Positions 16,764 through 36,374 of a stretch of 38,840 bases of DNA are shown piece by piece. Origin of the DNA: an uncultured Traorella sp. (GTDB lineage Bacteria; Bacillota_I; Bacilli_A; Erysipelotrichales; Erysipelotrichaceae); the NCBI RefSeq assembly GCF_944327115.1, contig NZ_CALVGS010000040.1, forward strand, positions 1 to 38,840, in the 5' to 3' direction. Made by a program: the position numbers and the translations under genes. Each line of letters begins with the position of its first letter. Within the stretch, counting starts at the first letter, position 1. Below the pieces are notes generated by a model that saw nothing but the letters and a program-made list of their open reading frames with translations, did no database searches and was not told the origin of the DNA.

Positions 16764-17047
16764 TAAGCCTGTGGATAAACAGATACCTGTGTCTTCTTCT
16801 TACCTAATCTTTCATAACGAACGATACCGCTTGCCTTCGCAAATAACGTATCGTCACCGCCACGTCCAACATTTAAGCCCGGATGAATCTTAGTTCCGCG
16901 CTGACGATAGATAATAGAACCACAGTTAGTAAATTGTCCATCAGCTTTCTTGGCACCTAAACGTTTAGAATGAGAATCACGTCCGTTCTTTGTTGATCCT
17001 ACTCCCTTTTTAGAAGCAAAGAATTGAATATCTAATACGAATCTCAT
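16763..17047 (-). CDS. rpmA: 50S ribosomal protein L27 with cleavable N-terminal extension
   Basis: A 94-residue L27. Residues 1-10 end in QFF before ASKKG, the Firmicute-type extension that the Prp protease removes so that the N-terminus can reach the peptidyl-transferase centre. The rest is typical ('[15 protein letters not shown]', '[11 protein letters not shown]', '[12 protein letters not shown]'). It overlaps prp by 4 nt (ATGA), with AGGAGGTG inside the end of prp. Confidence 0.98.
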
Positions 17048-24010: not shown

Positions 24011-25321
24011 CTATTTTGTATAGATATTGGTATCTACGATCATACGCTTCAATTCTTTGATATCAAAAGGAAATAAAGGATAAAGATATGGAAGCTTAAA
24101 CGTACGTGTTGTCAGAAGCAATAAAAAATGAATGAGCAGGCCGATACAAAAGCCGGTTATTTGAAAGGCCAATGACAGCATCGTCAGCATGATACGCATG
24201 ATCTTATTCGCCAGTGCCACTTCATAGGATGGAGTTAAAAAATTACCCAGATTGCTTAATGCGACAAGCAATAGGATCTCTTTCGTATAAGCTCCCATTT
24301 CAATTCCAAAATCACCTAGGACAAAGACAACCAGAAAGCCCATCATACTGTTGATCAAATTAGGTGCATACAGAAAGGACTGACGGATCCATTCGATCAA
24401 AAGCTCACAGATCAAGACCTGAAAGGCGATAAATCCGATATTACGGCTTTCTGCCGGAAGCTGTAAGAAGGAATGGGGACTTAGCATGCATACGATGATG
24501 AAAGGCAAAAGATAGATGCTCATAAAGACACCTAAATAACGGATCAACCGTGTAAAAAATGAAACGATCGGCGTTTGGGTATATTCCTCGATCTGTGAAA
24601 GCTGTTCAAAGAAAGTAGTCGGCAGGATCATGGCACTTGGCATGTTGTCTACCAAAATGATGATATGTCCTTGAAGCAGATGTATCGCACAGATATCGGG
24701 ACGTTCGGAATAACGTACATGGGGATAAGGATTTAGCGTTTTGCCATATAGCACTTCAACAAGATTACGTTCATTATTGATTTCAATGTTTTGATTAAGC
24801 ATCATTCGTTTTTGTATATCCCCAAGAAGCCGGTGATCTGCCTTATCATCCATATAACAGACAGCAATATCATTTTGAGTCATCCTGCCTTCCTGTGTCA
24901 GCTCGATCTTTAGCTTTTCGCTTCTGATACGACGGCGAATGAGCCCTACATTAAAAAGGATATTTTCACTGAAGGAATCATGACTGCCGCGAATGCTTTT
25001 TTCAATATTCGGATTTTCGATTCCCCGATTTGGATAAGCACGTGTTTCTAAAGCATAGACTTCATCTTGAATACATACCAGACATTGTCCGCTCATCAAT
25101 AAAAAAACAGCTTTAGAATAGTCGTCAATCTTTTCAGAAGAACCATTGAAAAAACATAACGGATCCTGATCTTCACTAAATAGAAAGCCTTCGATGATAG
25201 AAGTAATTGAACTTGTTGATGTCAGTGAGGAAAGAAACATCATGAAGACGCTTTGATGATTCAGGATGACCTCATGCTTGACGATATCAAAGGATTCAAG
25301 ATTTCGTAATCGTTCAATCAT
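24011..25321 (-). CDS. spoVAF: spore protein SpoVAF (GerA-family membrane protein)
   Basis: A 436-residue member of the GerAA/SpoVAF family: a soluble N-terminal half (with 'RRRIRSEKLKIELTQEGR' and 'GHIIILVDNMPSAMILPTTF') and a C-terminal half of about four to six membrane segments ('LSPHSFLQLPAESRNIGF'). In Bacillus SpoVAF joins germinant receptors and speeds germination. It is shorter than Bacillus SpoVAF (about 490), mainly at the N-terminus. It overlaps the end of spoVAE by 8 nt and is the last gene of the operon. Its linkage to spoVAE separates it from true gerAA, which comes with gerB/gerC partners. Confidence 0.9.
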   Translation of the reverse strand: MIERLRNLESFDIVKHEVILNHQSVFMMFLSSLTSTSSITSIIEGFLFSEDQDPLCFFNGSSEKIDDYSKAVFLLMSGQCLVCIQDEVYALETRAYPNRGIENPNIEKSIRGSHDSFSENILFNVGLIRRRIRSEKLKIELTQEGRMTQNDIAVCYMDDKADHRLLGDIQKRMMLNQNIEINNERNLVEVLYGKTLNPYPHVRYSERPDICAIHLLQGHIIILVDNMPSAMILPTTFFEQLSQIEEYTQTPIVSFFTRLIRYLGVFMSIYLLPFIIVCMLSPHSFLQLPAESRNIGFIAFQVLICELLIEWIRQSFLYAPNLINSMMGFLVVFVLGDFGIEMGAYTKEILLLVALSNLGNFLTPSYEVALANKIMRIMLTMLSLAFQITGFCIGLLIHFLLLLTTRTFKLPYLYPLFPFDIKELKRMIVDTNIYTK

Positions 25322-25664
25322 GGGCTTTAAAGAAAATGGCTACCCAGAAAGCCATAAAGATCGCAAAGCTGATTCCGCTGGCAGTCTTATCAAATAAACC
25401 TGTTAGGATACCGATCCAGCCTTCATTCTGAGCGGCACTGAGTGAAGCATGCGTCAGTGAATGACCAAATGAGAGAATCGGCAATGTGGCTCCGATACCA
25501 CAGATGCGGATCAGAAAATCATAAACGTTTAAGCATTCCAGCAATGAACCGATAACTACAAATAAGGAGGTGATGTGGCCGGGAGTCAGCTTTGTATTAT
25601 CATAGATCATTTGACCGGCCAAGGCACATCCACCGCAAAATAAAAATCCGTATAAATAAGTCAT
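25314..25664 (-). CDS. spoVAE: spore protein SpoVAE (SpoVAEb)
   Basis: A 116-residue membrane protein, equal in size to SpoVAEb, with four membrane segments and glycine-rich 'YGFLFCGGCALAGQMIYD' and 'IGATLPILSFGHSL'. It is part of the channel that moves calcium dipicolinate into the forespore and out at germination. The start at 25664 has AAAGGAG upstream and lies 1 nt after the spoVAD stop; 11 upstream codons are inside spoVAD. Confidence 0.94.
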   Translation of the reverse strand: MTYLYGFLFCGGCALAGQMIYDNTKLTPGHITSLFVVIGSLLECLNVYDFLIRICGIGATLPILSFGHSLTHASLSAAQNEGWIGILTGLFDKTASGISFAIFMAFWVAIFFKAHD

Positions 25665-25665
25665 A

Positions 25666-26646
25666 CTAGCTCCTTTCAATGCAGATGGCATGGGCAACGC
25701 TTGGGATTGAAAGCTTTTGCTGAGTCAAAAAAACATTATGCAAAGAACCGGTCGCTACCAATAAGATTCTCTTCATCTTCTTGCTTCTTAGATCTTTGAA
25801 TAGCTTTCCTAGTAAAACGGCCATGGAACATCCGCATCCGCTGCCGCCGCAAAAGACATCCTGATGATTGATATCATAGATCATGATGCCACAGTCATTC
25901 AGCTTATTTTCTAACTGGAACCGGGCTTTTTCGATCATTTCGGACAGCATTGCATAACCAATCTTTCCCAGATCCCCGCTAACGATCAGATCATAATCAT
26001 CAAAGGTGCGCCCCAGATCTTCAAAATGAGTCATGATCGTCTGATAAGCTGCCGGTGCCATGGCCTTTCCCATATCATTGACATCGCTAAACTGCCAGTC
26101 GACGACACTGCCGATCGTAAAAGAGGTAACCTTAAGGTCAGAAAATTCATTACTTAACAAAACTGCACCGCTGGCAGTAACCGTCGATGTCGAACATTCT
26201 TTTTTCTGTACACCGTATTCATTCGGGTATCGAAACTGACGTTCCGCAGCCTGTGTATGAGAGCTTGTAAAAGCGAGGACATGCTTCATATGCAGATGTT
26301 CTACTGCCATCGCCGCATGACCAATCGTCAATGCCGAATTGGAACAGGCACCATAGAGTCCTACAAAAGGAGCTTTCAATTCACTTGCTAAATAATGGGT
26401 GCAAAGCTGGTTGATCAAATCTCCGGCATAGATCAGATCCACCGTTTCAGCCTTTCCTTTTTTCAGACATTTATCTACACATAGACGATTCATTTCTATT
26501 TCTGCTTGTTCAAAGGAAGGCTGATTCAAATAGGGATCGCAGGTATAATCATCAAAATAAGAACCTAAGGGTCCTTCTTTTTCTAATTTTCCGACAATGA
26601 CATTTTCACTTTTCACATAGACATTCTTAAATTGCAGCGTCGTCAT
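25666..26646 (-). CDS. spoVAD: spore protein SpoVAD (dipicolinate-binding)
   Basis: A 326-residue thiolase-fold protein that binds dipicolinate in the forespore membrane. Typical: 'LEKEGPLGSYFDD' near 20-32, 'GLYGACSNSALTIGHAAMAV' near 100-120, 'GSGCGCSMAVLLGK', and 'LLVATGSLHN'. Start at 26646, overlapping the spoVAC stop (ATGA); an in-frame TTG five codons earlier lies inside spoVAC. Confidence 0.96.
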   Translation of the reverse strand: MTTLQFKNVYVKSENVIVGKLEKEGPLGSYFDDYTCDPYLNQPSFEQAEIEMNRLCVDKCLKKGKAETVDLIYAGDLINQLCTHYLASELKAPFVGLYGACSNSALTIGHAAMAVEHLHMKHVLAFTSSHTQAAERQFRYPNEYGVQKKECSTSTVTASGAVLLSNEFSDLKVTSFTIGSVVDWQFSDVNDMGKAMAPAAYQTIMTHFEDLGRTFDDYDLIVSGDLGKIGYAMLSEMIEKARFQLENKLNDCGIMIYDINHQDVFCGGSGCGCSMAVLLGKLFKDLRSKKMKRILLVATGSLHNVFLTQQKLSIPSVAHAICIERS

Positions 26647-27077
26647 AACATTCTTACCCAATAGGTGATCAAAGAAAAGATGATCGCACTGACAATTCCA
26701 TAAGTAATGACCGAGCCTGCCAGCTTGAACATATTGCTTCCGATACCATAAATCAATCCTTCCCGTTTACATTCCAGCGCTGAGCTGGAGAGTGCGTTTG
26801 AAAATCCTGTAATAGGAATGAAAAGTCCTGCTCCGGCATATTTCGCAAGCTTGTCATAAATTCCCATGCCGGTAAGTATCGCGGCGATGAATATAAAGAA
26901 TAAGATCGTTAAGATACCGGCATTTTCTTTAGAAAAATATATCATCAGCCAGTCGTTCAAAAGCTGACCGGATACTGCCAGCATCCCTGCACTGATAAAG
27001 GCTATCAATGCTTTTCTTGCCTTGTGGTCATTCACCTGATGGCGTGAACTGATTTCATGCAATTCTTTTTGATTCAT
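26643..27077 (-). CDS. spoVAC: spore protein SpoVAC
   Basis: A 144-residue membrane protein with four segments, near the Bacillus size of 150. 'GAGLFIPITGFSNALSSSA' near 85-103 is the family hallmark, with 'YGIGSNMFKLAGSVI' after it. SpoVAC is a mechanosensitive component of the dipicolinate channel. GGAGG sits 8 nt before the ATG but is also the 3' arm of a hairpin (27082-27117). First gene of spoVAC-spoVAD-spoVAE-spoVAF; no spoVAA/spoVAB is present here. Confidence 0.96.
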   Translation of the reverse strand: MNQKELHEISSRHQVNDHKARKALIAFISAGMLAVSGQLLNDWLMIYFSKENAGILTILFFIFIAAILTGMGIYDKLAKYAGAGLFIPITGFSNALSSSALECKREGLIYGIGSNMFKLAGSVITYGIVSAIIFSLITYWVRML

Positions 27078-27117
27078 AAAAAAATCCTCCTTTTCATTAG
27101 TATGAACAGGAGGATTT
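27078..27117 (-). terminator. terminator between sigF and spoVAC that also masks the spoVAC ribosome binding site
   Basis: AAATCCTCC (27109-27117) pairs with GGAGGATTT (27082-27090), a perfect 9-bp stem with an 18-nt loop, followed by a T-run to 27078. The 3' arm contains the only ribosome binding site of spoVAC, so read-through RNA from sigF would be both ended and hidden from ribosomes. Confidence 0.8.
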
Positions 27118-27127
27118 GATTAAATCA
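27098..27127 (-). promoter_or_regulatory. sigma-G (or sigma-F) promoter of the spoVA operon
   Basis: Minus strand: TGATTT (27122-27127), 17-nt spacer, CATACTA (27098-27104). The -10 equals the sigma-G consensus; the -35 matches TGMATA at four positions. The -10 lies in the loop of the hairpin above, and initiation near 27091 would leave out the upstream arm and free the ribosome binding site. Confidence 0.7.
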
Positions 27128-27848
27128 TTTTATCTTTCAGTTTTTGCAGAATACCTTTCTCAGCTCTGGAAATCTGTACCTGTGTGCAGTTAAGACGTTT
27201 GGCCACCTCACTCTGGCGGAATCCCAAGGTGTAACGGAAATAAAGGATGAGCTTTTCTTTTTTGCTAAGAAAGCTGATTTCATGATTTAAGCCTAATATA
27301 AGGACCTCATCTTTTACCACATCCGCAAGCTGATCATTAAGGGTAATCGTCTTTCCATCACTTTCAGTGATCTGTTCATCAATGCTGGAAATATGCTGAT
27401 GGGCATCAAAGGCAATATAGACCTCTTCAATGCTGCATGCACAGGCAGCGGCGATCTGCTCATAAGTGGGCTCACTGTTCAGCTCATGTATCAGCCTTTC
27501 CCTTTGCGCAAGCATACGGCTATAATTCTCCTTGATCGAACGCGAAATGCGGATCGAACCATCGTCACGGAAAGAACGCTTGATCTCTCCTAAGATGATC
27601 GGAATCGCATAGGTAGAAAACTGGACATCCTTGGAAAGATCAAAGTGATTGAGTGCCTTCATCAGACCAACGATACCGATCTGGAAAAGATCCTCACGAT
27701 TTCCTTTATATAAGAATCTCTGAATACATGAATAAACCAATCCCTGATTTTTTAATACGAAGTATTCCTTCGCTTCTTCATCATTTTCTTGAATGATGCG
27801 TATCAGCTCAAGATTACTTAGATTTTTGTAGCTGTTTCTGGACGACAA
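27120..27848 (-). CDS. sigF: RNA polymerase sporulation sigma factor SigF
   Basis: A 242-residue sigma-70-family factor, the first forespore-specific one. Region 2 ('DLFQIGIVGLMKALNHFD', 'FSTYAIPIILGEIKRSFRDDG'), region 3, and region 4 ('LSKKEKLILYFRYTLGFRQ', 'RLNCTQVQISRAEKGIL') are intact. It starts with TTG at 27848 with GAGGG upstream, 35 nt inside spoIIAB; no ATG fits the N-terminus. It is held inactive by SpoIIAB. Confidence 0.97.
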   Translation of the reverse strand: MSSRNSYKNLSNLELIRIIQENDEEAKEYFVLKNQGLVYSCIQRFLYKGNREDLFQIGIVGLMKALNHFDLSKDVQFSTYAIPIILGEIKRSFRDDGSIRISRSIKENYSRMLAQRERLIHELNSEPTYEQIAAACACSIEEVYIAFDAHQHISSIDEQITESDGKTITLNDQLADVVKDEVLILGLNHEISFLSKKEKLILYFRYTLGFRQSEVAKRLNCTQVQISRAEKGILQKLKDKMI

Positions 27849-28242
27849 CGCTCGTACCCTCTTTCAGACGTGAAATCACATCAAAGCTATCTGAGAAGGT
27901 TTGCATGATCGTCATCCCCATCCCGCTTCTTTCAAGCTCGGCCTTACTTGTATATAGAGGCTCCATCGCCTGCCTGATATCTTCAATGCCATTTCCCGAA
28001 TCACTGATGATCATTGTCACACAGCCATTATCATCATAGCCGATTTCCAGCTTCACAAGCTTATTGGGATTTGAATCATATCCATGAAGGATGGCATTGG
28101 TCACCGCTTCGGAAACGATCGTCTTGATCTCCATCATCTCCTCGATCGTTGGATTGAGGGGAGAAAGAAAAGCACAGGCCGTGATCCTCGCAAATGATTC
28201 ATTTTCCATACGGCTTTTAAATTTTAACGTTACTTTATTCAT
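27814..28242 (-). CDS. spoIIAB: anti-sigma-F factor SpoIIAB (protein kinase)
   Basis: A 142-residue GHKL kinase that binds sigma-F and phosphorylates SpoIIAA. N box 'VSEAVTNAILHGYDS' near 44-58, G1 'ISDSGNGIED', G2 'ERSGMGMTIMQTF'. The start at 28242 overlaps the spoIIAA stop by 4 nt, with GGAAGAGG 7 nt upstream. The end overlaps sigF by 35 nt, which ties the amounts of the two proteins together. Confidence 0.97.
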   Translation of the reverse strand: MNKVTLKFKSRMENESFARITACAFLSPLNPTIEEMMEIKTIVSEAVTNAILHGYDSNPNKLVKLEIGYDDNGCVTMIISDSGNGIEDIRQAMEPLYTSKAELERSGMGMTIMQTFSDSFDVISRLKEGTSVVVQKQLQKSK

Positions 28243-28547
28243 AAGCAAGCCTCTTCCTTGATCAGATGAAAAAGTCCCGACATGGCAAATATCACCCGAT
28301 GATGCTGATTCAAGCCTCTTAATACTAACTCACACTGATTCGATGCACACTGCTTGTAGCGTGCAAGCACAAAACCGATACCTGTACTATCCACAAAGCT
28401 GACATCAGTAAAGTCCAGAATGACCTTTGCCGGATGCACTGAATCGATCAAACGAATACATTCTTCTTTGATCAGCGAAATCTGATAATCATCTACATCT
28501 TCATTTAAATAAAAAGTCAACACATCTTTTTTCTTTTCAACGCGCAT
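28239..28547 (-). CDS. spoIIAA: anti-anti-sigma factor SpoIIAA
   Basis: A 102-residue STAS protein. The phosphorylated serine is Ser54 in 'FVDSTGIGFVLARYK'. When dephosphorylated it displaces sigma-F from SpoIIAB. The SpoIIE phosphatase that acts on it is not in this window. A 62-nt gap separates it from dacF, without a clear terminator; GGAATGAG precedes the ATG. Confidence 0.97.
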   Translation of the reverse strand: MRVEKKKDVLTFYLNEDVDDYQISLIKEECIRLIDSVHPAKVILDFTDVSFVDSTGIGFVLARYKQCASNQCELVLRGLNQHHRVIFAMSGLFHLIKEEACL

Positions 28548-36002: not shown

Positions 36003-36164
36003 TTACTCTGTACGCATACGGAATGAAACACATTCAGTTTCATGGGTACAGTTAGGACTTGCACAGCGATCACATCCGACACTGATTTCATGAGCATCAC
36101 AAATTTTCTGGTTATTAAAGATACATGACATGACCGAGCAATTGATCTTAGTTTTATTTTCCAT
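36003..36164 (-). CDS. DUF1540 cysteine-rich small protein
   Basis: A 53-residue protein with seven cysteines (9, 14, 22, 31, 34, 39, 45) in the DUF1540 pattern: 'INCSVMSCIFNN', then Cys22 before 'AHEISVGC', then CASPNCTHETEC. It probably binds a metal such as zinc. Such proteins are common in spore formers; their role is unknown. GGAGG lies 8 nt before the ATG. A longer reading frame in another register (to 36217) covers this stretch but has no ribosome binding site or family resemblance. A sigma-G-like promoter lies just upstream. Confidence 0.85.
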   Translation of the reverse strand: MENKTKINCSVMSCIFNNQKICDAHEISVGCDRCASPNCTHETECVSFRMRTE

Positions 36165-36183
36165 CGTTTTTTCCTCCACGACT

Positions 36184-36213
36184 TAGTATGCCGGATAAAA
36201 AGAGTTTTATTCC
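36184..36213 (-). promoter_or_regulatory. sigma-G-like promoter of the DUF1540 gene
   Basis: Minus strand: GGAATA (36208-36213), 17-nt spacer, CATACTA (36184-36190). The -10 equals the sigma-G consensus and the -35 differs from TGAATA at one base. The -35 covers the stop codon of the Cse60-like gene. Confidence 0.7.
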
Positions 36214-36374
36214 TCATAGAGGATCAATGCGCTGAAACAATAGATCTGTTCATCATTGTTTTTGAAACAGGCATTAGAAAACTTAATATCAATGACCTTC
36301 TTATCCTTGATAAATTCGTTGATGACCATCGTCAGATCATTCTCATGCTGTTCATCGATACATTTTACTTTCAT
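36207..36374 (-). CDS. Cse60-like sporulation protein
   Basis: A 55-residue acidic protein starting MKVKCIDEQHENDL, which resembles Cse60 (a small sigma-E-dependent Bacillus protein; pattern V-K-x-x-D-E-x-H-E-x-D-L followed by an 'INEFI' helix). The start at 36374 is preferred on that resemblance, although the ribosome binding site is poor; 25 upstream codons lie over the end of dapA. It follows dapA by 13 nt and may be coupled to it. Confidence 0.7.
   Translation of the reverse strand: MKVKCIDEQHENDLTMVINEFIKDKKVIDIKFSNACFKNNDEQIYCFSALILYEE

Follow-up and report, generated by a model that had tools for sequence, protein, structure and literature searches.

The analysed window, a stretch of 38,840 nucleotides from a 2.23-Mb assembly of an uncultured Traorella (Erysipelotrichaceae), carries a run of sporulation genes extending from spoIIAA to a GerA/SpoVAF-like gene, all of which are encoded by the minus strand; a dacF-like gene lies upstream (Table 1). 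Within this run sigF directly adjoins spoVAC, the two genes being separated by a gap of 42 nt, the sequence of which, inclusive of the spoVAC start codon, is TCAAATCCTCCTGTTCATACTAATGAAAAGGAGGATTTTTTTATG. The nearest named relative is Traorella massiliensis Marseille-P3110T (designated G004), whose SpoVAC is 88% identical, and further genomes fall into the same genus group.

Read along the minus strand, the sigF stop codon is followed by TC AAATCCTCCT g TTCAT acta ATGAA a AGGAGGATTT TTTT ATG, in which AAATCCTCCT pairs with AGGAGGATTT to form an outer stem of 10 bp, succeeded, after a one-base mismatch, by an inner stem of 5 bp. The initial annotation had described a 9-bp stem with a T-run, of which the spoVAC Shine-Dalgarno sequence (SD) formed the 3' arm; the SD arm and the T-run stand, while the stem proves to be one base pair longer and to be continued by the inner stem. 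The sense strand folds with a free energy of -22.2 kcal/mol (z = -4.5), which was equalled by none of 200 shuffled sequences, and when the 22 nt preceding CATACTA were exchanged for random T. massiliensis DNA, none of 4000 draws matched the observed stability. A stable, G+C-containing 10-bp stem with seven T residues directly after GGA has the sequence characteristics of an intrinsic terminator, and transcripts are predicted to end at this hairpin and its U-run. A simple terminator scan, which considered loops of 3-8 nt only, did not list the sigF-spoVAC hairpin.

Table 1. Features of the sigF-spoVAC region and related junctions (window positions unless a contig is given; SD, Shine-Dalgarno sequence).
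Feature	Position	Strand	Basis or remark
spoIIAB and spoIIAA, at the head of the spoIIA operon	27814..28547	-	TIGR01925, TIGR02886
sigF	27120..27848	-	Upstream of the element; best models NCBIfam TIGR02885/NF004052 and ORF; stop codon 27122-27120
Putative sigma-G -35 TGATTT, weak, over the sigF stop	27122..27127	-	3/5 to gHATR
Hairpin 5' arm AAATCCTCCT (anti-SD), doubles as promoter spacer	27108..27117	-	Fold
Inner 5-bp stem TTCAT/ATGAA (27106-27102 with 27097-27093), loop ACTA	27093..27106	-	Fold
Sigma-G type -10 CATACTA, spanning inner stem and loop	27098..27104	-	Invariant in five genomes
Predicted sigma-G transcription start, +/-1-2 nt	27091	-	~7 nt after the -10, spacing rule
Hairpin 3' arm AGGAGGATTT, includes spoVAC SD AGGAGG (27086-27091)	27082..27091	-	Fold
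T7 run separating the SD from the start codon, putative terminator U-run	27078..27084	-	At least 7 T in 5/5 sigF-adjacent genomes with the layout
spoVAC	26643..27077	-	TIGR02838, 152 bits; ATG from 27077; start putatively masked/licensed
spoVAD, spoVAE and GerA/SpoVAF-like gene, remainder of the spoVA operon	24011..26661	-	ORFs and family models
recN-spoIVB nested layout (L035/L192)	G000:C113:24881-24903	+	CATACTA flanked by the arms of an SD-masking stem, T5
spoIIIAH junction (one of L361-L379)	G000:C113, about 16797-16871		SD-masking hairpin, sigma-E-like CATAnnnT -10 in loop

Between the arms of the hairpin lies CATACTA, a perfect match to the sigma-G -10 sequence CATnnTA. This element had been assigned to the loop; it is indeed located between the arms, but its CAT is paired within the inner stem and it is therefore only partly unpaired. 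The position previously given for TGATTT, 17 nt upstream of the -10 and over the sigF stop codon, is exact, though as a -35 the hexamer is weak, its GATTT agreeing with the gHATR consensus of Bacillus sigma-G at three of five positions. At 17-18 nt upstream of the -10, the same comparison with the Bacillus consensus yields 3/5 in T. massiliensis, 4/5 in G002 and in G028 and 5/5 in G003, while a full gHATR match is also found at the spoIVB and DUF1540-like sites of Traorella. The promoter claim is most vulnerable at the poor -35 in the genome under study, that of T. massiliensis being likewise weak. Sigma-G start sites are placed ~7 nt downstream of the -10, by which rule the predicted promoter, putatively sigma-G dependent, would initiate near 27091. 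The genome possesses a sigG gene (L061), which adjoins sigE and is the top match to the sigG model, with a score under the curated cut-off, as in the relatives. Elsewhere in the window, a sigma-G-like promoter (GAATA, 17 nt, CATACTA) without a T-run lies just before a short cysteine-rich DUF1540-like gene (36150-36230, minus strand), and similar DUF1540-like promoter sites are present in G004 and G002.

The fused layout, with sigF directly before spoVAC, was found in five genomes, i.e., the one studied here, G004, G002 and G003 (all Traorella) and G028, which belongs to another genus, their junction sequences being, in that order, AAATCCTCCTGTTCATACTAATGAAAAGGAGGATTTTTTT, AAACCTTCCTGTTCATACTAGTGATAAGGAGGTTTTTTTT, AAAACCTTTTTGCTCATACTAGCAGCAAGGAGGTTTTTTT, CACCTTCTGAGCATACTAATGTCAGGAGGTTTTTTT and TCTCCTTGTCTGCACATACTATGGACAAGGAGGTTTTTTT. 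All five share CATACTA, AGGAGG and seven or more consecutive T residues, and these constitute the only conserved blocks. The check that had been proposed for the -10 came out in favour of the original proposal, in that the stem sequence varies around a constant CATACTA, SD arm and T-run; none of the five combines a retained stem with a lost -10. When each sequence was folded individually, seven positions were found at which both sides of a pair are altered and three that differ only by a G-C to G-U change; the inner stem also varies among the relatives, with pairs altered on both sides. As bulges shift the register of the stem, an alignment-free arm-swap test, in which the 5' flank of each genome is joined to the 3' part of every other, was used instead of column-wise covariation on a MAFFT alignment. 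Own pairs reached a mean of -15.6 kcal/mol versus -11.7 kcal/mol for swapped pairs, and 4 of 120 permutations were equally good; the comparison covers five genomes, of which two are close relatives, and the support from spoVAC alone is modest. Across the five fused junctions, between 0 and 25 of 4000 random 5' flanks per genome folded as stably as the native one.

These comparisons also bear on two other ways of reading the inverted repeat. The first, that it represents a DNA operator for a regulator, agrees with the fact that the outer repeat is perfect as DNA in the genome studied here, but G-U pairs in G002, G003 and G028 and a bulge in G004 preserve the RNA stem while breaking the DNA symmetry, and the repeat sequence is unconserved outside the SD; we therefore regard it as very improbable. 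The second would make the region a ligand- or protein-controlled leader, i.e., a riboswitch-like attenuator, in which SD-masking terminators are typical. A search of Rfam 15 returned no family at its gathering score, the best match being PyrG_leader with 36 bits versus the required 65, which overlaps the element (27078-27154, minus strand) and probably reflects a general hairpin likeness. Given that the 42-nt gap leaves no room for an aptamer and that conservation is confined to the three blocks named above, a leader of this kind is hardly to be expected.

The same junction is organized differently elsewhere. Most other Bacilli in which sigF adjoins spoVAC have a plain, separate terminator after the sigF stop codon, and in G221 and G034 such a terminator is accompanied by a free-standing CATACTA promoter; insulation of spoVA from sigF would therefore appear to be a common need, met by separate terminator and sigma-G promoter in those genomes and by a fused arrangement in the five genomes above, where the distinctive feature is that terminator, promoter and SD are combined in one element. 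Among metagenome Bacilli (L121-L151), many sigF-spoVAC terminators place their 5' arm within the last sigF codons, which represents another economy of space. In relatives whose sigF is located elsewhere, spoVAC often retains CATACTA just before the SD, mostly without an SD-masking hairpin or T7, and hardly any spoVAC start without an upstream sigF has seven or more T residues in succession; L006 (G014), with an anti-SD stem around CATACTA, is an exception. A candidate layout in genus-g20 (G023, G250 and G251), where sigF also adjoins spoVAC, was rejected, its hairpin being weaker, with the -10 paired to the SD-ATG spacer, and being equalled by random flanks in 2814 and 497 of 4000 draws in the two genomes tested. 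CATACTA also occupies the loop of an SD-masking T-run hairpin at L182 (G211:C178:31-57), where the contig end cuts the gene, in a genome without detected spoVAC or spoIIAB; this hairpin may have arisen by chance or serve a different use.

Folding predictions distinguish sharply between the two RNAs that could carry the spoVAC start. In long RNA entering from sigF the probability that the SD is unpaired is 0.000-0.009 across the five fused genomes, versus 0.26-0.65 in the predicted sigma-G RNA that starts just before the SD, in agreement with the original proposal that read-through RNA hides the spoVAC ribosome binding site and that RNA from the inner promoter is free. In long RNA from seven genomes without the fused layout the corresponding values are 0.25-0.98. 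In a background of 1.14 Mb from T. massiliensis, the SD is fully paired upstream at 109 of 781 gene starts, and so it is at four of the six that have CATACTA nearby; a paired SD alone is therefore not rare, and the argument rests on its combination with the -10, the T-run and the co-change of the arms. To the extent that these models apply in the cell, the SD would be masked there in read-through RNA.

We consider it probable, at roughly three chances in four, that the sigF-spoVAC gap acts as a compact developmental insulator, in which a terminator and an SD mask act against early RNA and an inner sigma-G promoter escapes both. Polymerase arriving from the spoIIA/sigF operon would produce RNA carrying both arms, and most of these upstream transcripts would end at the hairpin and U-run, while in any residual read-through RNA the spoVAC SD would be buried in the stem. 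Sigma-G polymerase, in turn, would use a promoter that has the 5' arm as its spacer and its -10 across the loop, giving an RNA that starts close to the SD, is devoid of the 5' arm and should be translatable. In this manner spoVA would remain silent until sigma-G acts, despite the presence of sigF directly upstream. A variant in which the hairpin masks the SD without terminating, such that sigF and spoVA are co-transcribed under purely translational control with CATACTA as a late promoter, is in line with the full pairing of the SD in read-through RNA and with precedents from phage T4 that work so (PMC3014915). At least seven T residues directly after the stem in all five genomes, and their near absence where sigF is not upstream, nevertheless fit termination, and this variant is thus judged improbable.

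The layout is not restricted to spoVAC. The pattern CATACTAN{2,15}GGAGGWTTTT has 14 matches in 316 genomes of the order, versus one for the reversed pattern, with two matches in each of four Traorella genomes; across 247 genomes sampled from the class, only two further matches occur outside the order. The second match in the genome studied here, in G004 and in G003 lies at the recN-spoIVB junction (own sequence ACCTCCCATccatactagATGTGGGAGGTTTTTATATG), while in G002 it precedes a short gene that we take to be DUF1540-like. The recN-spoIVB layout is kept in G004 (L186) and G003 (L187), and a -10 of TATACTA or CACACTA is found there in G001 (L343) and G028 (L345); the arm-swap result for spoIVB is weak, with 13 of 120 permutations equally good.

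For spoIIIAH, by comparison, whose 5' flank and SD region change together throughout the family, the arm-swap test on 20 genomes gave an own-pair mean of -14.7 versus -10.4 for permuted pairs, with none of 20,000 permutations equally good, a result that holds when a single Traorella is retained. The stem sequences differ between genera yet remain complementary, while the -10 position always shows CATA with a T four bases further along and the -35 remains CATA-like; these elements resemble the sigma-E promoters familiar from B. subtilis. RNAalifold returned no consensus structure for the spoIIIAH alignment, in which stem registers shift. SD accessibility at spoIVB and spoIIIAH is descriptive only, the null having kept part of the 5' arm and some SDs having been poorly chosen.

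More generally, SD-T5-ATG sites number 32 in the genome studied here versus eight for the reversed pattern, and GAGG is fully paired upstream at 12 of the 24 gene-like sites. Such hairpin starts include spoVAC, spoIVB, spoIIIAH, a pdaA-like polysaccharide-deacetylase gene and dprA, along with a gene for a family-1 glycosidase and one that is thiT-like, the products other than SpoVAC having been named by reading the sequence; non-sporulation genes are also among them. In both genera the pdaA-like gene (L297 in the own genome, L332 in G028) has CATAAGAT or CATACATT between the arms of a T-run hairpin that masks its SD. At the sigE-sigG junction of the own genome and of relatives (L061, L060, L059 and L057), a sigma-F-like -10 (GGGAAAAATG or similar) lies between hairpin arms before sigG, and in the own genome SD masking of sigG is only partial by folding (probability unpaired about 0.5).

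The recurrence bears on a further alternative, that the sigF operon simply has its terminator here, superimposed on the SD and a sigma-G promoter for want of space, the masking being without a function of its own. The T-run in five of five genomes suits this explanation, as does the plain terminator that serves alone at most other sigF-spoVAC junctions of Bacilli. Against it, the 3' arm falls exactly on the SD in all five genomes and does so again at spoIVB and spoIIIAH, and some spoIIIAH junctions (e.g., G028, G147 and G016) are without a long T-run yet keep the SD-masking stem. We thus view the plain-terminator explanation as unlikely, albeit the most serious competitor to the insulator.

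Taken beyond this one gap, the data lead us to favour, with some reserve, the existence in Erysipelotrichaceae of a recurring one-piece switch at sporulation junctions, in which a sigma-E, sigma-G or perhaps also sigma-F promoter contributes its spacer as the 5' arm and the SD of the next gene forms the 3' arm, often with a U-run, and which would end or silence upstream transcription and license a stage-specific transcript. With similar reserve, its scope would be family-wide at spoIIIAH, several genera at spoIVB, those genomes with an adjacent sigF at spoVAC, and two genera at the pdaA-like gene. The initial annotation had described a single site; the recurrence strengthens the idea of a switch and at the same time ties it less closely to sigF-spoVA.

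The insertion elements IS10 and IS50 offer a known parallel, since external transcripts of their transposase genes form a foldback that masks the ribosome binding site and RNA from the inner promoter is unmasked, although these are mobile elements and involve no developmental sigma factor. For sigG (spoIIIG) of B. subtilis, translation from spoIIG read-through RNA has been proposed to be blocked by a large hairpin, which transcripts of the sigG promoter are unable to adopt (PMC5942855, citing Masuda 1988 and Sun 1991). As at spoVAC, a sporulation gene there lies behind an earlier sigma-factor operon, with the read-through RNA proposed to be masked and the own-promoter RNA to be free; however, the spoIIG-sigG hairpin is of 20+ bp with no terminator described, whereas here terminator, spacer, -10 and SD share ~40 bases. 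The sigE-sigG junction hairpin described above resembles the B. subtilis arrangement. In phage T4, early RNA of gene e and of I-TevI-type late genes masks the ribosome binding site, and the late promoter is situated at the sequence encoding the stem's 5' strand; late transcripts of gene e are freed, with an effect of about 100-fold, and late promoters of several homing-endonuclease genes likewise remove the 5' strand of the masking hairpin (PMC3014915, PMC2988022). The spoVAC element is similar to gene e in that the long transcript would mask the ribosome binding site and an inner promoter is predicted to bypass the 5' arm, but T4 employs phage late promoters and a phage sigma factor, and its translational masking is described without a terminator U-run. 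No report of a nested hairpin at sigF-spoVA, recN-spoIVB or spoIIIAH was found in the open-access literature subset; the principle is established by B. subtilis sigG and phage T4, while what looks new is that the promoter spacer doubles as the terminator 5' arm in so compact a form, and that this arrangement is used repeatedly.

As promoter, terminator and ribosome binding site are mutually constrained within about 40 bases, the arrangement is directly testable with small reporter constructs. If correct, it would caution against reading gene pairs of the sigF-spoVAC type as a single operon, and would provide a compact rule, readable from sequence, for how neighbouring spore genes can follow different schedules with no separate terminator between them. 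It would furthermore mean that an idea known from phage T4 and from one B. subtilis gene is used repeatedly within one bacterial family.
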